Origin: Mucor racemosus
Taxonomy: Eukaryota > Mucoromycota > Mucoromycetes > Mucorales > Mucoraceae
NCBI GenBank assembly: GCA_027405735.1
Contig: JAPEHQ010000012.1
Coordinates: 1,240,001 to 1,304,000, forward strand
Direction of reading: 5' to 3'
Length of the DNA: 64,000 nt
The translations under genes were made by a program, and so were the position numbers. Below, one piece after another: positions 30,316 through 49,269 of the stretch; position 1 is the first letter of the stretch; the number at the start of each line of letters is the position of its first letter. Under the pieces are notes generated by a model. That model was given only the letters and a program-made list of their open reading frames with translations, made no database searches and was not told the origin of the DNA.

Positions 30316-33300
30316 TTATTTGTCTGTAATTGCTAGTGATTCTGTGACATTATTAATTGGCGGTGGGGTTGATGGTGAAGGAGAGGAAGATGTTGTTGTT
30401 GTGCGAGAAGGATGGCAATATGTTCTTAATGACTCGGCTAATACTTTTTGATTTAATGGTTTTGTAAGGTAGCCATCCATACCTGCATTCATACAAATTT
30501 GTTTTGCACTATCTTGTACATCCGCTGTCAAAGCAACAATTGGAAACTTAGTCGTTCTACCTTCTTCTTTTTCAATTTCTCTAATTCGTTTGGTAGCAGC
30601 GACACCATCACACTATTTTTAAAAAAAGATATTTTAGTTGGGATATTCATGTGTATAATAATATAGCAACTTACCTTGGGCATGTGATGATCAAAAAATG
30701 CCATGACAAAATATCCGTCGGGTTGATTACTCCAAGAGTTCACTGCTTCCAGACCATTATTTGCGCACTCTACTTGGAACCCAAGTCGGGTAAGTTGTTT
30801 TAAGAGTAATTTCTGTGCAACAGGATTGTCTATAAATGACATAATTGTGATTAATAACGCACATCGTTTTACCAGTTTGTATCATTTTTACCTTCAGCAA
30901 TCAATATATTCATAGTACTAAATAATGTTCTTTCTTCATCTGTGATCAATTTGACATTGTTTGATCTTACATTATTGGTTGTTGGGCTAGGCAATTTCTT
31001 ATTAAGCACTTCACCAATTGTGCGCAACAATTTAATGCGTCTCAAAGGCACAGCCATTCGGATTGCCTTGCATGATAGTTTTTGATTTGAAACATGTTCA
31101 ATCAAACCTGAACCAGATTTGTTGACAATTCCACCTGCAGGATAATTCATAATAATAATCAAACAATCTTTGTTAACTTTACTTGCTTCTTCAAGCCATG
31201 CAGACGAAAAGGAACTGTTATCAGGATTCATGAATAATCCAACGATAATAACATCGTATTTAGTTTTAGCTAATAATTTCTTGAATTCATCGATTTGCTG
31301 TACTCCATCTACTCGAATTCCAGGTAAAAGGAAACGAATCATATCCGTAGTTGCGACATATTTGGAAATAGCCAATACTTTAAGCGAAGACAGACAACGG
31401 GAAAGTGTTTTACGTTCATCGTAATAGCCATCAGTTTGAATACTTTTACTTGGTTGGGCTCGAAGTTTAGATACGCGTACACTAAAGTAGAAATCAGAAC
31501 CTTTTCCAGGTACACTTGATACGTTAATTGAGCCAGACATGAGTTCAACTAATTGTAAACAAATGGATAGGCCAAGACCTGTACCACCATATTTACGTGT
31601 CGTACTGCCATCTACTTGAGAGAAAGGTTCAAAGAGTACCTTTCTTTGCTCATCACTAATACCAATACCGGTATCAATGACCTCAAACAAAAGAGCTACT
31701 TGATCACCTGCTTCTTTACCATTGGATTTAGTTGTATCAAGTGAACACTGAATACGAATCTCGCCTTCATGAGTAAATTTGATAGCATTGCCCAAAAGAT
31801 TGATCAATACTTGTCGAAGTCGATTTCCATCCGCCATAACAACAGCTGGAACATTCTCTGCTACCATATATGCAATATTAATGTTCTTTTGAATTGCCAT
31901 TGCAATCAGCATTTCAACTACATCAGCAATTAAATCTTCCACTACAATAGACGATAGATCCAATGTTACTTTGCCTGCTTGCAATTTAGAAAAGTTCAAT
32001 AAATCGTCAATGATTTGCAGCAAGATTTCACAAGATTCTTTTGCTGTCTTGACCAGATCTCGTTGTTCAGGATCCAAATCTGTTTCTGCCAACAAAGATA
32101 TCATACCATAGAAACCAGAAAATGGCGTACGAATTTCATGACTCATATTAGCCAAAAAGATTTCTCTTAATCTAGTAGCTCGGACAGCTGCTTCTTTGCT
32201 CTTGCGTGCATCTTCTAATGCTTTCTTTTGCATTTCAATCATACGCATATTAGCCATAGTAACACGTTGCACTGATTTAAACAAGAACGCATTGGTAATT
32301 GAAATACCCATTTGTTGACAAAGTAAACTGAGAACTGTAATGTGTCGTTGAGTAAAGATACCACTGGAACCTTCCAAGAACACACATCCAGCAAGCGCTG
32401 TTTTGTGAATAATAGGCATACAAATAACTGATTTTCCACCAACACGATCATACCAAGGACCAACAGCAAATCTAGCATCTTGCTCTACATTTTGAATAAA
32501 GATGCTTTCACTTGTATTGATTGTATGGTGAATAATACGACTAGATACCAATTCATCGTCTTCAGTTAATGGTCGAGGAGGATCAAATGTCATGGAACCA
32601 TCTTGTTGACTACCATAAGCACACATGCCATATTTTTCTTCTTTTACAATGATAGCACCACAATCAGCACCAGAATTTTCGAGAATAATAGACATCATTG
32701 ATTTGAGTAAACTGTCAAATTTGACTTCAGATGAAATTACTTGCGAACTCTTGAGAATAGATGCCATATCTAAAATGTCCAATGTAAGCAATGTTTGTTC
32801 TGTTGTCACCGGAGGAATAGTTTCAGAGACGAATGGTTCATTGAGTGAATTAATGGGACCCATTGAAGATGTACTCCAAGTGCCTTGAGGGCCCAAGAAT
32901 GGGAAAGGATCAGTCTGAACACCAATTTCATGAGACTCAACACGGTCATCTTCGTATTCGGACAACAAGCTACTGTATTTAGCATTCAAATGTTGAGCTT
33001 TACCATAAGAGCCATGATTGACATAAAGATTAATGGATTTCTTGAGCATACCATATGCAGCATTCTTTAAACCAATACGATTATAGAAGCCACCAGCGTA
33101 CTCATGACAGATACAGAGATCAAGATACCAGGCACCATCACGACTTTGATCAATAGCAGCTTCATAAAGTCGAATGGCTTTACCAATATCATTTGTCATT
33201 GTAGCTGTTATTTCAGCTTCAACCAAAGTATACCACATTATATAGTTAATTCGAGAGTGTTCCGTCCATGGCTTCAGTTTTGCTTGATTTGCTTCGACTT

Positions 33301-36300
33301 GTTGTGTATAAATAGTGATTTCGTCATCAGTCATAACATCTCGTTCAGTACGAATCTTTTCCAAAATAGCAAGAGATTGCAAGTAAACAGACATACGAGT
33401 ATGGCGATGGCAAGGATGATTATGAGCTCCACGCAAACACATGAAGCCAACAGCTATAGCGTATTCATAATGACCATAGAGCACTAGAGGAACCATACGG
33501 AATGAATCATACCAGTTCAATGGAACATCAATATTTGCACTTTGATCACAACTTTCAGCAATGAAATGCTTATCATTAAAACCATCATCGCCATCAAAAA
33601 TCTCCTCAGCTGAGCTATTGAATGTGTGTCCTTGAAGGGCCTTGATAACACGAATGACAGACATGATTAAAATGTTGGTATCGGCTGACGAAGACCAAGC
33701 GTGAATATCATCATAACAGCTTTCTGCTTCTACAAGAGTATCTGATAAACAAGCACCAGTATAAAACATGGTATCTGCGATATGTAAATGTGAAAAAGAT
33801 GCATAGATACGATCACCAGCAGACAATGAGTATCTTAAACTTTGATAGAACCAAGGTATAGCCTCACGATGATGGTGTTTCCACATATTTAAAAAGATAC
33901 TGTACAGACAAATGGCACGACCTTTCTCGTTATTACTTCCATACTTTTCAGCAATAATACAACCAGCAGCGCCGAGTTCTTCGCCAAAGGAGAATTCCTC
34001 GTGAAATTCAACACAGCAGAGACCCAAAAAATTTAAAGCGATGCCACTAGTAGAGGTCATACCTTGAGTAAGAGAAAAGTATACCAACTTGGTAGCCAAA
34101 TAGAACATCTCAGTTTGATTTCCCAGCCAGTAAGCAGCAGTGCACATCTCTTCAATAATAACCATAATAGCTGTCAATTTAGGATCATCGCAAGGACCAA
34201 TTTTGCACATTTCTTCAATACCCATCGTACGAATCATATCAATAACTTTGGTATAAACAGAATGGAGTTCGTCTCTACTATTCAAAAACTTGAAGTCTTC
34301 TACTTGCAATTCTTTTAAACAACTGCGCAATGCCTGAGCACCTTCTTCATGCATTTGACGAGAAAAGAAATACTTGTGTTGAATACGAAATGCTGTTACT
34401 CGATCCATGGGATCAGAAGTATGAGTAAAGATGACATCCAGGTACTTCTCAGTGGTATCATATTCACCAACAACCCAACTTAATGAAACGGCGTTGGTAT
34501 ATAGGTAATGAGTACGGGCATAAGCATCTCCTTCCCAAGCATTGGGGCTTAATAAAGCAATTGCAGCTTTGTAGTAACCAAAAGCCATCTTGTGAGCACC
34601 AGAAGCACGAGCTTTGTTACCAGCTTCATAAAGAATATTCTTGTAACACGCCTTTTGATCCAACTCACAAACCAAGTTGAGACATTTAAGTAGGTGATCA
34701 GCAATCAAGAAACTATCAGCATTTTCTTCTATTAAAAAATGTTAGGATTTAATCAATTTGTTTGAAAGTAGATTATCATTTACCATGTAATAAGTATTTG
34801 GCAATTTTAAAATGAATCTTTTCATGACTTTTAGGGTTAGCAAGCTCCATAGCAGCTTGAGAGTATCTATCATGAGACCACTTGAACTCGTCGCTTTCTA
34901 AAGGCAAGATGTAACCTTCTTGAAGGGCTGCTTGCAAACCATTAATAGGATCCCGGGGCTTGCGAGTAGAAGATCTACCTTTTCTTGGTATATCCTTCAC
35001 AGAGGAAGATAAACTACTATTTGAACTATTTGTGCATTGAGAAAACTTGATCAAAGGATGCAAAGAGCCTCCAATAGAATGGCGTCCCGAAGAACCAGAA
35101 GAAGCAGCATCATCATCTCCAGTATGAGAGGTAGTCTCTGATGAAGTGGCATCATTATCTGAAAACTCTGATTCAGGATCAGAATGTAGCATCAAATATT
35201 TGACAGTATTCCAAGAAAATGTATCACCGACAAATGATGCCCATTTAAGCAAACGTTGACCATCCAAAGGTAATTCTTTCAAGCGATTTACCAAAAAACT
35301 GATGTCTAATTCAGCATCACGGTCATTGCCATCCCTTGTCATGATGGCTTGTTGAATGTCTGCCAAATTGTAATCCCATTCGTTTTCTTCCCAATTAAAA
35401 AAGATGAACTTCTTCTTTTCAAGCGTGGCCAGCAGCTGTGAAGTATAAAAAGCATTTCCTCGAGTTTTTTTGTAGACAATATCTGCCAAGGGTAAGATTG
35501 AATCTCTATCTAAATCTAAAGGTCGGTGAAGAGCATCGCTAATATAATCTACAACGGAATCGAAATCAAGAGCATCAATGCGAAGATGATGAATGGTAGC
35601 ATAATCGTTCGCTAAAAGTTTATCGAGTGTATCTGTAGCTTCTTGATCTCGATAAGACATAAAGATCAAGATTTTGAGACGAGATCCAATCATACTTTCA
35701 ATTATTTCTAACGAAGGTTCATCTGCTAAATGTAAATCATCCAAAAACTAAAAATAGCAATGTTAAATTAAGTGCTTCTTGGCAATATTCAATGAAAAAC
35801 TTACCAGAGTTACCATACGCCATTGAGTCAATGCACGAAACACTTCAACAAATAAATTGTGGAATCGAATACGAGTTTCTACATTATCCAAATGAATTTG
35901 ATCTATGGGTTCTTCAGAATCTTCACTTTCAACAGGATCTAATAAAGGTTTTAATTCAGGTACCAAATCAGCCAACAATTCGATTTTGCAGAACTGAGCA
36001 CCTAGATGTGATTTAAGATGATTATAGAATACATGAATATCTTCTTCTGATTCTGACAAGATTTGTTGTAGGATTTGAGAAAGTGATTTCAAAATACAAC
36101 TATAAGGCACTTTATGTCTTGAATCAAATTTAGACGTAGCAACGTAACTATAAATTAAGGTTAATATCTAACAAATCATTCGAATAAATAATCAAACTTA
36201 CCCATGTTGCCTTGCTACATTTTGTACAGCGTTAAATACAGTTGATTTACCAACACCACCAGGGCCAGCAATGGATATAATTTCAACACCTTGTTTATTT

Positions 36301-43924: not shown

Positions 43925-44330
43925 AAAAATGGCGATTTTTACAATATGCGGTTTTTGACCCCGAAAATGGCATTTTTTACTATAGTATATATGGGCAAAA
44001 AATGACCGTAAGAGCGTGATTCTTGTTCCCAAAACCTAAAAAAGGCTACTCAATTTATAAATTTTTGACATTTTGGAGAAAATGCGTTAAATCTAATATT
44101 CAAAAAATATCAATATTTTGTGAGAAAAATTGAGAAAGAAGTTGCATTATTAGATTCACATTAAAAAGTACTATTTTAGTTAATTAATACAGCAATAGTG
44201 GTATATATACATTTTTGCAAGATAATCAACAAAGAAGCTCTTTTTTTTTTAGTTTCATCAATTTTTCGTTTCTCAGACGAGGTTTGCATTTTTTTAGTTT
44301 TAAGCTCAGACAACCACATTCAAGGCAAGC

Positions 44331-44352
44331 CTTGAATCTTGCAAGTATAATA
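44331..44352 (+). repeat. Left inverted end of the Fanzor element
   Basis: Pairs with 48692-48713 over 22 nt with one mismatch (A against G after the CTTGAATCTTGC core). It also overlaps a local palindrome at 44320-44337 (TTCAAGGC-AA-GCCTTGAA). Confidence 0.75.
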
Positions 44353-45045
44353 TATTTTACACACTAAACTTACAGGGCAATCCATATGACAATGCAATGC
44401 TAGCATGCCATAGCTTCTACATGAATCTACTGTATTATTATTTTTAACCCAATTGATAACATTTATAATATAGATAAATTTAATTTAACACAGATAATTG
44501 TTCTTAAACTTACTTTCAATTTATGTAATTTGTCCAATCAAGTATACTACTGTAGTGTTTGGATCATTGAGATAAATTTATTATGCATGCTGAAGTAATG
44601 CCAGTATAGAATATAATCAAAGTGAGATAGTACAAGAAATTTGTATTGTAGTCGGCTTGAATTTCTTCATTATTCATATTCCGTATTATACGTATCTTCT
44701 TTATAATCCAGGCTGAATTGACCTACATACATCGTCAAGTCAGCATACAGAATGTAATGTATTTCAACTGACTGTTAAAATGGCATATAGAATATGAAAT
44801 CACTTATGATATATTAATTGAGCTCAGGATATAGCCCCAAAGGTATTGTATATCAAACGTTTATTACGCCTTTTCTTTTTCTTTTCTCTCTCTCTCTTTC
44901 TGATCCTATTTACCACTTTTTCACAAATACATCAATAAAAACATACACAATCAGGATATACAAGTATTACAAGCATGTATGACACAAGTAATGTTCGGCT
45001 TTAACATACGAGAACTAACATTTGTTCAATTATAATTTAAGCTAA
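44353..45045 (+). promoter_or_regulatory. Internal 5' region of the Fanzor element
   Basis: 693 nt without a supported ORF between the left end and the Fanzor ATG. A T/CT-rich tract at about 44871-44915 resembles fungal promoter tracts and is the likeliest promoter. No intron or guide-RNA signature was identified here. Confidence 0.4.
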
Positions 45046-48000
45046 ATGTCCAGCGTCCGTAAGAAGAAAGAACAGAGAGATGCTTTTGATGGCACTCAAA
45101 CTAGTTACCCGCCTCAATGGAACACTTCAAGTGGAAAAAAAAGAGAACATCCATCATCATCATCCACTGCAGCTCCCATAATAAAAAGGCCAAGGACGTC
45201 TGGAGTTTCTTCTCAGAGACTGATGGATAGCTTCTATCAATCTATGCGTGATAATATTACAAATAAGGTTAACTCTATTATTGGTAAAGATAAAAAGCTG
45301 ATAGAATTAAAAAAAACGATGTCTGAAGCGAAGAGGCTCCCTCCTGGAATCCTTAGCAACGCTGAGAAAATATGTAACTGTAATCAAGGTGAATTAAGCG
45401 ATTATCTTGAACACCATACTCTTAAGCGAAACTTTGTACACTGGCAAGACTACGTGAAAGAAAATTTTGACAACATTGTATTATATTTTTCATCAGAACC
45501 ATCAAGTTCTTCAGGAAAAACATCACATCAGCCATCTCAAGCTGAATCTTCTAGCCTTATCCCTTCTCTTCGTCGAGAGCTTTCTGCAATGGATGTAGTA
45601 TCTGAAGTATCTTCAATCTCTGGTGCTCCAACCGAAATGTCAGACATTTCCATTGAAAAAGAAGAGGAAAGCATGGAATATCGTACCTGTACAGTATCAT
45701 TTAAAAGCATATTACGAAAAGATGTAAATCCACAGATTGCTGAAGCATTTCTACGCAAAGTAAATGCTGCATTATATAATGTATCTGATTATCTCATGGA
45801 TATCCAACTGGTCGTTTTCACATTGATGCTCTCTATGAAATCATCGCAATTCGTGGTTGCTCAAAATGGAGATGTAGAATATAAGAAGTGCCAAGGTTTC
45901 CCAATTGAAAGTATCCTTCCATCAGACTTTCGAATGAAATCTGACACCAAATTTTCTGCTCCTCCATTGTCATCAGACGCTATCAAGTCTGAGTCCTTCT
46001 GCAAAAACTTGAAGCAACTCTTCCAAAGTCAACACATTGACTACCTCCATGTTACATTATTTGGAAAAAAGGGATCAAAAAGCACAAATCCTATATTTCA
46101 TGCTTTGGCCGAAAGCAATCATCCGTTGATATCGTCATTTTCTCAGGAAACTCCTCGATCTACTAATGAATTGATGCAGATAGCTTTGAACCTATATAAA
46201 GTCAACTTGAAGAATATGTGGTCTGGTAACAAGTTATTCAACAAGATATTGAATAAGGTTATTGAAGTCCTCCTCCGGATACATCTTGCTCCCAAACGCG
46301 AGAAAAAATATCAGGATTACATTGAATCAAAGTCAAAAGAAGATCATGAAAAAGATGATGTTTCAAAGCCTTCTCGAAACTCGTTCCACAACGTCATTCG
46401 ATCAGAGAAGTACAAATTGAAAAAGTATCGGAGAAAGGCTCAAGGTAAAGGAGAAGATAACAGGTGGTTTGTATTAGCTGAAAAAAGCCAACAACGAATC
46501 AACAATATGCATCAAACTTTCAGACGCACTGATCGTGATAAACCTTTTCAAGAAGAATCTGGGTCTGCCTCCAATGATAATATTGCCCCGATTGAAGAAA
46601 TCATCCCATTTAATGAAGTTCTGGAGGAGGAAGAAATGGAGGAAGCAGAGTCAGATGATCGTGATGTAACAAGACGACGAATTTTAACATTAAAAGTTGT
46701 TACAAAAGACCTTATGTTTAATCATTATGGTGAGACTATTACCGATAATCATTTTAAAGAGGAGGTTCCAGATATTACTCCTGCTGAAACTACAGTATGT
46801 TTAATGTTATCAAATGCATTGCTTCCATATATACCAAGCAAAGAAAATTATGGTCATATTGGATTTCAATTTCCATTCTTATTGTTAGCTAACGATGTAC
46901 TTCGATCAGTTGGATATAGTAAATTTGTAATGGACTTGTGCCCCACATCCTCCCATGCATCTTTGAATGCTTTACGATTAGATGCTCCATCAATTTACGC
47001 TTTATGCAGTCAGAAGAATGAAGGCGATCAGATGACCATTTTCGACTTTCAAGGTTATGTCATTGATTCAGTTGTTAAAGCACGTACCTACAAAGATGCA
47101 GTATTCAACTCTTTTTTCGACATTCGTGCTATTAATAATGCTTGTAAATCATATAAATTAACTTTTGCTCATAATGTGATAATTTCACCTGGACTTAAAT
47201 CTGCAAGGATCTTAGGAAATAGACCTATCAAAGACCAAGCTACCAACACAAACACCAACGCAAACTTGATCGACATTGATTGGGACACTGTCAAAGATTT
47301 ACAGTCGAGAAGCAATCAAGAATTGAAAGCTGACATTGCTGATATAGGACAACAGATTCAGAATGTTTCTGCACTATTAAAAGAGCACAGCAGACAATTC
47401 AGACGAGACGATTTTTCTACAAGAATCAAAGATTTAAAAATTCAATGGAAGAATGATCATAGTAAATATCAGGAAATCCAAAAATTGAAAGCAGATAGAT
47501 TCAATGCTTTTAGTGCTTTACAAGCGACGAAGCAACAGCTTGCTGACCTTAGAAGTCAGCAATATTATTCAAGAAAAGCCATTCAGTATCGCAATAAGAA
47601 TATACCAAGTATTACAAGGACTGAAGAAATTCATAATGAAGAGTCCCTTGGAAATTTGATATTCTCAGGAACAGACAATGGTCTCAAAGTCATGACTGAA
47701 ACAGTTGCTGTTGGCATTAACAAATATAAATACTGCTTAAATCTGCATAACAGATACTCTCCTCTTGCTTCTGATAATGACAACGATGATCTTGATGCAG
47801 CATCTGACGTTTTCCTGCCCCTTCCAGAATCGTACAAGATGTATGCCGAAGATATTGATTTCGGGTCTGGTCAATTCAGAAAGAGGAAGCTGATGGAAAA
47901 AGACAAACAAAGCACAGAAGGCAGACAAGTAAAGATGATTGAAACCAAACTGTCCAAATCTAGTGTATATTTATCAAAGAATGTTGATGAAATTCAGAGC

Positions 48001-48633
48001 AGATTGGTTAATCGTAAGGAAGATATCAAAACTCTCCGTGCATTCTACCATTCAAAGAAAATGGTTAATTTAACAAGAAGTACTGAATGCAATGACAAAA
48101 GATTTCGCTCCGGTGCTGCCTCCAAAGAAAGATCTTTTTGTGTTGGTAGACGTCCACAAACGTCCCTTATAATGTTTATTGGGGATAGAGGCATTGGTAT
48201 TGGCTCGAGGCTGAAAGGCCATCTAAAATACGGAGGTAAATGGAAGCCAAAACTGCATGCTGTTTCTTCTGCTATCCATTTTACAAATGAACACAAGACA
48301 TCCCAAACTTGTATGTTTTGTTTTGGTCCACTCACACATCCCAAAAGAACTAGCAAAGATAAATCAGCAAAAAAGACAGTAAATGGTGCTTTCTGGTGCC
48401 TTAATCCAAGATGTATTTCTGTCAGATCTCACAAGCCAATTCAATCAAGAGACAAAACATCTGCTTTGGCTATTGCTGTATCTGGTCTTTCTAATTTAAT
48501 TTTTAATGAGCCATTACCGGTGTTCAATCCTAAACCCAGTCAATCCTATACTGGTATTTTCACCAAGACCAACGCTTTCTGTTCAAGAAACGAGCATGGG
48601 GACGGCAGCGGTGCTGCATCAGCGGAGGCTTGA
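45046..48633 (+). CDS. Fanzor (eukaryotic TnpB-like RNA-guided nuclease)
   Basis: Intact, intronless ORF of 1195 residues, large for the family. The C-terminal third carries the RuvC/zinc-ribbon core. RuvC-I is SGTDNGLKVMTETVAV (Asp877). The RuvC-II region reads LIMFIGDRGIGIGSRLKGH, lacking the usual Glu at Asp1047. An alternative Glu1082 lies in FTNEHKTSQTCMFC, as described for Fanzors with a rearranged catalytic site. The zinc ribbon has Cys1089, Cys1092, Cys1118 and Cys1123 (CMFC and CLNPRC). RuvC-III is SRDKTSALAI (Asp1136). The N-terminal two thirds are unrecognised, with Ser-rich, acidic and coiled-coil stretches (NQELKADIADIGQQIQNVSAL). KKREH and KRPRTS near the start are likely nuclear localisation signals. 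Fanzors cut DNA using an RNA usually encoded near the element end. Identity rests on motif order and spacing, not on a search. Confidence 0.83.
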   Translation: MSSVRKKKEQRDAFDGTQTSYPPQWNTSSGKKREHPSSSSTAAPIIKRPRTSGVSSQRLMDSFYQSMRDNITNKVNSIIGKDKKLIELKKTMSEAKRLPPGILSNAEKICNCNQGELSDYLEHHTLKRNFVHWQDYVKENFDNIVLYFSSEPSSSSGKTSHQPSQAESSSLIPSLRRELSAMDVVSEVSSISGAPTEMSDISIEKEEESMEYRTCTVSFKSILRKDVNPQIAEAFLRKVNAALYNVSDYLMDIQLVVFTLMLSMKSSQFVVAQNGDVEYKKCQGFPIESILPSDFRMKSDTKFSAPPLSSDAIKSESFCKNLKQLFQSQHIDYLHVTLFGKKGSKSTNPIFHALAESNHPLISSFSQETPRSTNELMQIALNLYKVNLKNMWSGNKLFNKILNKVIEVLLRIHLAPKREKKYQDYIESKSKEDHEKDDVSKPSRNSFHNVIRSEKYKLKKYRRKAQGKGEDNRWFVLAEKSQQRINNMHQTFRRTDRDKPFQEESGSASNDNIAPIEEIIPFNEVLEEEEMEEAESDDRDVTRRRILTLKVVTKDLMFNHYGETITDNHFKEEVPDITPAETTVCLMLSNALLPYIPSKENYGHIGFQFPFLLLANDVLRSVGYSKFVMDLCPTSSHASLNALRLDAPSIYALCSQKNEGDQMTIFDFQGYVIDSVVKARTYKDAVFNSFFDIRAINNACKSYKLTFAHNVIISPGLKSARILGNRPIKDQATNTNTNANLIDIDWDTVKDLQSRSNQELKADIADIGQQIQNVSALLKEHSRQFRRDDFSTRIKDLKIQWKNDHSKYQEIQKLKADRFNAFSALQATKQQLADLRSQQYYSRKAIQYRNKNIPSITRTEEIHNEESLGNLIFSGTDNGLKVMTETVAVGINKYKYCLNLHNRYSPLASDNDNDDLDAASDVFLPLPESYKMYAEDIDFGSGQFRKRKLMEKDKQSTEGRQVKMIETKLSKSSVYLSKNVDEIQSRLVNRKEDIKTLRAFYHSKKMVNLTRSTECNDKRFRSGAASKERSFCVGRRPQTSLIMFIGDRGIGIGSRLKGHLKYGGKWKPKLHAVSSAIHFTNEHKTSQTCMFCFGPLTHPKRTSKDKSAKKTVNGAFWCLNPRCISVRSHKPIQSRDKTSALAIAVSGLSNLIFNEPLPVFNPKPSQSYTGIFTKTNAFCSRNEHGDGSGAASAEA

Positions 48634-48713
48634 ATCTGGTAAGTTGTAGTAAAAATTGGCTAAGCTATATGGCATTTACTAATATGGTAATTATTATACT
48701 CGCAAGATTCAAG
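48629..48713 (+). ncRNA. Candidate guide-RNA region/hairpin at the right end
   Basis: CTTGAATCT at 48629-48637 overlaps the stop codon and repeats the element end in direct orientation to the left end. It faces the right end (48692-48713), so this 85-nt stretch can fold back (CTTGAATCT with AGATTCAAG, plus a few more pairs). TnpB and Fanzor guide RNAs typically come from the 3' ORF end through the right element end. Assignment as RNA is inference. Confidence 0.35.
48692..48713 (-). repeat. Right inverted end of the Fanzor element
   Basis: Reverse complement matches 44331-44352 at 21 of 22 positions. It lies 59 nt after the ORF stop codon. Confidence 0.75.
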
Positions 48714-49269
48714 TTTTCGCACATTCAGGTTGATAGATATTGGCCTGGAATCACCATTTTGACATTTTTAAGCACTCGATTAGCCTATTTTAAGTGTGGT
48801 ATGTACTTGATAGGTTGTAAAAAAAATAAGGAATGTGTTATTTTGGGCTACATATTCAAGGATTTCTATAATAATTTGGTGGTTTGGCTGAAAAAATTGC
48901 ATTATACTACATTTTTAAATGTTGGCATTATGGATAATGTTTTTGGATATCTACTTCATAATTCAAATAAGCATAATATATCTATAGGCAGCTTACTGCA
49001 TTTACAGTATTATAATATTTCCAATATATGTTTATATACCACAAAATCTTGCCTTGGAGAAATATACTTACTCATCAGGAATTTGAATTGTAAATTTCTC
49101 CTAGATTAATTTGGGAATAATGAGGCGCAGAATTGCTACACTAAAACAGGTCAACTGATACACAGAAAGTCTGAACTTGTTTTCATATGCAATCTTACAT
49201 CTCACTTCTTTTTTTATTTATTTTATTAATCCTTATTGTTTAAAATGAAAATCAGAATAGAACGCTGGG
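48714..49269. other. Flank between Fanzor element and membrane-protein gene
   Basis: Contains the promoter and perhaps a first exon of the next gene. A possible start exon ATGAGGCGCAGAATTGC at about 49121 is not well supported because its donor would be weak. A 159-codon frame (48630-49109) starting inside the element is AT-rich and lacks protein-like composition. Confidence 0.4.

Follow-up and report, generated by a model that had tools for sequence, protein, structure and literature searches.

A 64,000-nucleotide stretch of the Mucor racemosus genome (assembly GCA_027405735.1, contig JAPEHQ010000012.1, positions 1,240,001 to 1,304,000; hereafter the window) contains a transposable element of 4,395 bp, which we call F1 (window 44325..48719, + strand). 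Its single open reading frame (ORF) of at least 100 codons encodes P0001, a Fanzor-like protein of 1195 residues; Fanzors are eukaryotic relatives of the CRISPR nucleases. Comparison of genomic copies shows that F1 has been mobile, that its ends are defined, that it inserts beside a target motif and that the P0001 gene is under protein-level selection. F1 is probably a non-autonomous element of the Fanzor1 type, which carries a long, divergent RNA-guided nuclease and is moved in trans by a transposase; the guide and cutting steps are attributed to it by analogy.

The P0001 ORF (45046..48633, +) starts with ATG and runs through 1195 codons without an internal stop. The start codon is backed by two relatives, P0002 and P0004, which align with P0001 from residue 1 on. 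The initial annotation of this region had described a large, intact, intronless ORF with the motif order of a Fanzor, and the ORF, its relatives, its motif and the comparison of copies bear this out. The RuvC-I motif GTDNGL with D877 lies at 47668..47685, in the context FSGTDNG, and was delimited by alignment and copy comparison. It is followed by E1082 (48289..48291; context TNEHKTSQTC), the alternative, Fanzor-type RuvC-II glutamate of an ExxxxxxCxxC motif, placed by comparison of copies and spacing. A zinc ribbon with C1089, C1092, C1118 and C1123 (48310..48414) and RuvC-III with R1135-D1136 (48448..48453), both delimited by copy comparison, complete the series, all on the + strand. The D877, E1082, D1136 triad and the zinc-ribbon cysteines, checked residue by residue, are invariant in all ten full-length genomic copies.

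We searched P0001, eight relatives, shuffled sequences and the frames of the window for the published TnpB/Fanzor motif, D-X(125,275)-[TS][TS]xx-C4-X(5,50)-RD (Bao & Jurka 2013, PMC3627910; this and the other papers are cited from their accessible parts), as a regular expression. P0001 matches it, with 207 residues between D877 and T1085, as do five of the eight relatives; no match was found in P0003, which ends before the second cysteine pair, nor in the shorter P0008 and P0009. None of 20,000 shuffles of P0001 contained the motif, and among the 25 stop-to-stop frames of at least 150 residues in the window it occurs in one, the P0001 ORF. A glutamate six residues ahead of the zinc ribbon (E-x6-CxxC) is described as a mark of Fanzors (PMC10711439), and P0001 has it (E1082-x6-C1089), as does SpuFz1 in our alignment. 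In size, P0001 exceeds the Fanzors described in the accessible parts of the literature, since most Fanzor1 proteins have 600-700 residues (PMC11423790) and some reach about 800 (PMC10711439).

For a comparison within the genus, we used canonical, PF07282-positive Fanzor1 copies from the same genome (L001-L004), which are close to Mucor plumbeus proteins: the joined open frames of one canonical Fanzor1 are 78-81% identical to these, which marks the host as a Mucor-like fungus. The M. plumbeus protein P0010 (793 residues) hit the SpuFz1 structure in a sequence search (E=1.2e-4). As a bridge set we collected 28 relatives of L001, 14 of them PF07282-positive, and aligned 18 (alignment A6). Canonical Mucorales Fanzor1 proteins (P0010, L001-L004) share with P0001 the D-E-D order, the D-to-E spacing and E-x6-C, but differ in being PF07282-positive, in having DPG at RuvC-I and in having 521 residues ahead of the first aspartate. 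The D-to-E spacing is 205 residues in P0001, 202-283 in its long family and 202 in P0010; across the 11 canonical relatives whose D[PN]G allows the measurement, it spans 125-236.

The P0001 family can be aligned to the canonical proteins solely over the stretch with the glutamate and the zinc ribbon. A zinc-ribbon profile of the family scored 24.8 against the Fanzor1s, a value reached in none of 200 and none of 100 column shuffles, and for a profile from RuvC-I to the end, 1 of 100 shuffles scored as high. In the full-length profile-profile comparison the best local match paired TNEHKTSQTC with IDEFMTSRTC, which is the predicted register, at low probability. Profile bridges before trimming gave Prob 0.5 (A3 against L001) and 1.1 (A3 against A6), and the trimmed F1 profile against L001/L005 gave Prob 4.

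Several results speak against assigning P0001 to the Fanzors. The initial annotation had named the absence of a Fanzor/TnpB profile hit as grounds for giving the assignment up, and PF07282 (OrfB_Zn_ribbon) and NCBIfam indeed gave no match: the best PF07282 value was E=0.53, in one of seven family members, and P0001 had no Pfam match above the cut-off and none in PADLOC. Searches of PDB with P0001 and with the family profiles returned nothing relevant, and the SpuFz1 structure was not matched by P0001. RuvC-I reads DNG in all seven rows of the family alignment, whereas Fanzors are described as having DPG near exclusively, a wording that allows exceptions (PMC10711439). The E-to-D spacing is 54 residues in P0001 and 54-57 in the long family, against 39-42 in the canonical set. 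The RuvC-I region by itself showed no similarity to the Fanzor1 profile (86 of 100 shuffles scored as high), nor did an N-terminal control profile (78 of 100). Structure prediction, another of the checks that had been proposed, left the core unreadable in either direction: two AlphaFold models from an alignment of seven sequences had a predicted local distance difference test (pLDDT) of 39.9 and 46.5, too poor for a statement on the core, on a WED/REC/RuvC/TNB fold as in Fanzor1 or on clustering of the triad, with values of about 70 and above solely in helices at residues ~450-490 and ~745-850 (in the second model also ~950-1010).

Because neither a library profile nor a fold identifies P0001, its assignment as a Fanzor rests on the motif, the spacing and the local profile match to Fanzor1s of the same genus. 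The motif order thus stands, and the nuclease identity is supported to this extent. That P0001 is an unrelated zinc-ribbon protein whose motif arose by chance would fit the lack of library matches and of a usable fold; however, the complete and ordered motif, E-x6-C, the spacing, the shuffle controls and the transposon context make this very improbable.

Two protein searches each yielded six relatives at E 0.001, two of those in the second search being new; P0001 itself is absent from the list. The relatives come from Mucor (M. fragilis, M. lusitanicus, M. velutinosus) and from two further sources. P0002 (M. fragilis, 1262 residues) and P0004 (MUCCIDRAFT_112793, M. lusitanicus CBS 277.49, 1308 residues) fall within the 47-53% identity range of the P0001 family over nearly their full length; they differ from P0001 in belonging to other species and are annotated just as hypothetical or unnamed. 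The viral contigs searched contained no relative. The long N-terminal region, which had been called unrecognised, remains so: it has no Pfam match above the cut-off and no NCBIfam match, and in the searches made it has no relative outside its own family. Residues 31-50 (45136..45195, +) form a candidate bipartite nuclear localisation signal, KKR-x13-KRPR, judged by the consensus of such signals; P0002 and P0004 carry similar basic clusters.

Searching the genome (53.2 Mb, 54 contigs) with P0001 gave at least 40 matches and 192 candidates, of which 39 were scored. Among the matches listed are several degenerate pieces and, besides the window copy, nine further full-length copies of F1, 95-97% identical. 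Similarity among these ten is lost abruptly at both ends, which defines the element. Its ends, which bear the sequence GCAAAACTTGAATCTTGCGAGTAT, carry 22-bp terminal inverted repeats (TIRs) at 44331..44352 (+) and 48692..48713 (-), with one mismatch between them in the window copy. Outside these lie a left tip, GCAAGC (44325-44330, +; from the copy alignment), and, unlike it, six right outer bases, TTTTCG. F1 is flanked by the target-site duplication CACATTCA (44315..44322 and 48720..48727, unstranded), of which the left copy is followed by AG and the right by GG.

Each of the ten full-length copies has a duplication of 8-9 bp, and in the shorter relative L051 the duplication can be read as 10 bp. 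The pattern of the F1 ends, with up to three mismatches, has 48 matches in the genome, left ends and right ends being counted jointly, and none in the control. The right end (...GCAAGATTCAAGTTTTCG) falls on the identical base in all ten copies. The left tip GCAAG is kept in seven, including L009, which has lost part of an inner hairpin; L007, L011 and L012 have lost between about 10 and 39 nt on the left, with the duplication intact. The truncation in these three stops exactly at the duplication, and right-end truncation occurs in none of the ten. A LINE-like (long interspersed element) insertion, considered on account of the ragged left ends, is not needed, as the left tip persists in seven of the ten copies. 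Shorter derivatives of F1 vary in how much of the right end they contain; several keep the tail of the ORF, but L043 and L064 keep little, so that retention of the right end is not strict. At L011 / C5:925463-926144, a full-length F1 stands directly beside an F1b left end, apparently at one target site.

The initial annotation had also proposed that the protein was active or maintained recently, and the copies attest to its maintenance. Eight of the ten full-length copies have no internal stop, and L009 (codon 839) and L015 (codon 1166) have one each. Over the 45 pairs of copies, mean synonymous divergence (Ks) was 0.049, nonsynonymous divergence (Ka) 0.016 and mean Ka/Ks 0.32, with Ks falling to 0.026 in the last 35 codons. 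Polymorphic sites make up 16.5% of the left (5') noncoding part, 7.6% of the ORF, 5.7% of its last 105 nt and 4.9% of the 3' noncoding part; the 3' end is therefore no less conserved than the ORF.

As is known for Fanzor1 proteins, the carrier of P0001 is a eukaryotic transposable element, and its TIRs with duplications of about 9 bp fit a non-autonomous MuDR/Mutator-like element (MULE). We searched the genome for the missing transposase in six frames, exon by exon, and found no match to the MULE transposase PF10551, although a diverged or intron-split one could escape such a search. Other transposase Pfam matches occur at 86 places (KDZ 7, hAT 70, IS1595-type 8, Helitron 1); the smallest distance between one of these and one of the 48 end matches is 11.2 kb. 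L066, a stretch between two end matches considered as an autonomous partner, contains merely a Fanzor-like relic.

These data bear on an alternative explanation, in which a MuDR-like or other cut-and-paste transposase moves F1 in trans and P0001, lacking RNA-guided activity, is carried along passively or is decaying. It accounts for the TIRs and the 8-10-bp duplications, but no MULE match exists in the genome, the other transposase matches lie at least 11.2 kb from the end matches, and a Ka/Ks of 0.32 speaks against pure decay. We regard it as unlikely.

A second family of long Fanzor-like proteins indicates what role P0001 has in transposition. Among the matches listed, its members (L020, L025-L035) are 31-33% identical to P0001, with matches broken by stops or introns, and also contain GTDNG, TNEH..SSQTC..C and SRD. 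They lie in elements of about 4.6 kb with short direct repeats at the ends: in L025-L035, ACAGTAT is found on the left in 9 of 11 and CTCAGTAT on the right in 10 of 11. The left end is differently arranged in L025 and L027. Because proteins homologous over most of their length thus travel on two types of element with different ends, P0001 appears to be cargo rather than the transposase. The idea that its N-terminal region is itself a transposase is disfavoured, as the second-family homologue occurs with short direct CAGTAT repeats and without the F1 inverted repeats.

Fanzor1 elements of Chlamydomonas are known as Helitron2-like, and we considered a rolling-circle origin for F1 as well. The hairpins at its ends, its constant 3' terminus and the duplications around its 5'-truncated copies recall CRe-1 to 3 as described in the accessible text (PMC3627910), and the genome contains one broken Helitron Rep stretch. 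However, Helitron2 insertions with a complete 5' end lack a duplication and have a T-rich target; complete CRe insertions have no duplication (ibid.), whereas F1 copies with a complete left end have duplications of 8-9 bp, the target is not TTTT and inverted repeats are present at both ends. This origin is extremely unlikely.

F1 inserts next to a one-sided target motif, TTCAAACTCCG-N5, in which TTCAAACTCCG occupies positions -16 to -6 ahead of the duplication. In the window its copy is TTTAAGCTCAG (44299..44309, +), 5 bp left of the duplication. The motif was derived from an alignment of 16 insertions, namely the ten full-length copies and 6 of 30 end-match loci for which a left end and a duplication were found (those of L062 and L064 contain mismatches); of the 24 left out, some are the same ten copies and others have no left end in reach. 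G-6 and A-12 are conserved in all 16 sites, C-8 and T-15 in 15 and C-7 in 14. The 11 columns contain 14.7 bits, or 14.6-14.9 after sites with common flanking repeats are dropped, whereas other parts of the left flanks do not exceed 2.84 bits and the right flanks do not exceed 2.71. With up to three mismatches, the motif is at the expected place in 15 of 16 sites (L009 fails); its reverse complement (up to two mismatches) is found in none of the 16 flank pairs, and loose forward matches occur at scattered other places in a few flanks. In an independent test on eight outside flanks picked by end sequence alone, four (L063, L066, L069, L070) matched at the expected spacing (p 0.013 or less each). 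The other four did not (L061, L067, L068, L071), of which L067 resembles the interior of an element and L071 has no proper tip. L017 and L072 match but were excluded, having been found through the motif.

Genome-wide, the motif pattern occurs 91 times against 35 for a reversed control, partly because a dispersed repeat carries it. This repeat forms the flank of L058 and was listed at no fewer than 30 places including L058 itself (70-100% identity). Six unoccupied copies (L073-L078) run uninterrupted through motif and duplication; L011 is inserted into another repeat copy at the homologous position, and L010 aligned poorly there. The repeat is AT-rich, and two F1-type elements thus occupy one position in different copies of it. 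Two explanations of the motif were rejected. Pairing with the internal CGGAGGCTTGAA is disfavoured since this sequence is complementary in F1 and changed in F1b, yet the F1b sites L058, L059 and L062 keep the motif; a resemblance to the tRNA B-box was dropped because the spacing is off by one.

A polar motif at a fixed distance could also mean that a Fanzor ribonucleoprotein (RNP) itself picks the site and cuts the two strands at staggered positions, one 16 nt and the other 24-26 nt from where the motif begins, after which repair or a helper inserts F1. In 15 of 16 sites the motif precedes the duplication closely and always points the same way, never as the reverse complement (0/16), the distances resemble the reported SpuFz1 cuts after bases 16/17 and 20/21, the motif resembles F1's own right end TTCAAGTTTTCG, F1 contains no transposase, and left ends are ragged in 3 of 10 copies. 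Yet the best-conserved bases, CCG (-8 to -6), are unlike the right end, a homologous protein in the second family goes with quite different ends, and the accessible parts of the literature examined show Fanzors cutting DNA but do not show them inserting it. Such a mechanism seems improbable. Just as doubtful is the wider idea that these very large Fanzor-like proteins form a lineage of their own, in which the RNP instead of a transposase picks the site through the polar 11-bp motif and a eukaryotic transposon thus undergoes RNA-guided insertion or homing. A guide starting inside the right end (TTCAAG..) would be mismatched to the target at CCG and survives only within this weak alternative.

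For F1 as a non-autonomous Fanzor1-type element moved in trans, we envisage the following course. A transposase acting in trans would most likely insert F1 beside TTCAAACTCCG-N5 with 8-10-bp duplications. The 3' end would then be transcribed past its last base, with the hairpin of the right end as a putative guide-RNA scaffold; the neighbouring host sequence would supply the guide, predicted to start at the right target-site duplication. The nuclease (D877, E1082, D1136) would cut homologous alleles that are empty at this site, and repair templated by the occupied copy would keep or spread F1.

The hairpin is predicted at 48623..48719 (+), where the terminal 15 nt of F1 (48705-48719) can pair with 48623-48637, which spans the stop codon region of P0001. 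Its energy has a z of -2.68 (2 of 200 shuffles as low), and when 20 nt of flank are added to the fold, 19 of these stay unpaired. The right-end pairing might serve as a scaffold, by analogy with known guides. Against this, covariation is almost absent: when 14 right ends from two subfamilies were compared, just 1 of 28 pairs showed a two-sided change. Since the pairing overlaps the terminal repeat, the hairpin may matter only as DNA. Conservation immediately to the left of the duplication is, moreover, weak, so that there is no clear target-adjacent motif (TAM) where a simple TnpB model puts it. Just 3' of the stop codon lies GGTAAG (48638..48643, +), resembling a 5' splice donor; it is present in many, not all, right ends of alignment A2 and also follows the stop in the second family (L033). 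Speculatively, in both long families it might suppress early polyadenylation, letting transcription reach the flank.

The nearest described relatives of F1 are the Fanzor1 elements MCi-4, ROr-4 and PBl-3, which likewise come from Mucorales, have TIRs and 9-bp duplications and lack a MuDR transposase (PMC3627910); the comparison is by description only, and the accessible text gives no target motif for them. MCi-2 resembles F1 in its 11 copies with a near-identical 3' part, variable 5' ends and duplications, but has no recognisable TIRs, has 11-12-bp duplications of ATAATTNNNN(N) and, in subfamily 2A, a partial Crypton transposase (ibid.). The M. lusitanicus relative P0004 may belong to these MCi families. 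SPu-1, which encodes SpuFz1, is like F1 a single-ORF TIR element with many copies and ORF-less 'ghost' elements, and unlike it has a 633-residue protein and a TA duplication (PMC3627910, PMC10432273). Neither a Fanzor of P0001's size nor the target motif of F1 was found in the accessible literature searched, which excludes supplements and subscription papers. The Fanzor family is thus known already; what is new relative to the literature examined is the size, the divergence and the polarity of a target motif.

Elsewhere in the window (30869-34708, -), an ORF of 1279 residues with GAF, HisKA and HATPase domains encodes a histidine-kinase-like protein.

If P0001 is a Fanzor, the size range of these proteins, as far as the accessible literature records it, would grow by about half beyond roughly 800 residues, and a lineage would be added that library profile searches miss. 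Since its copies are young, near-identical and for the most part intact, and since its ends are defined and its target motif is sharp, F1 would be a native Fanzor element that can be tested. Comparing occupied with empty sites in related strains could reveal where the guide starts, what the TAM is and how the nuclease helps to keep or spread F1.

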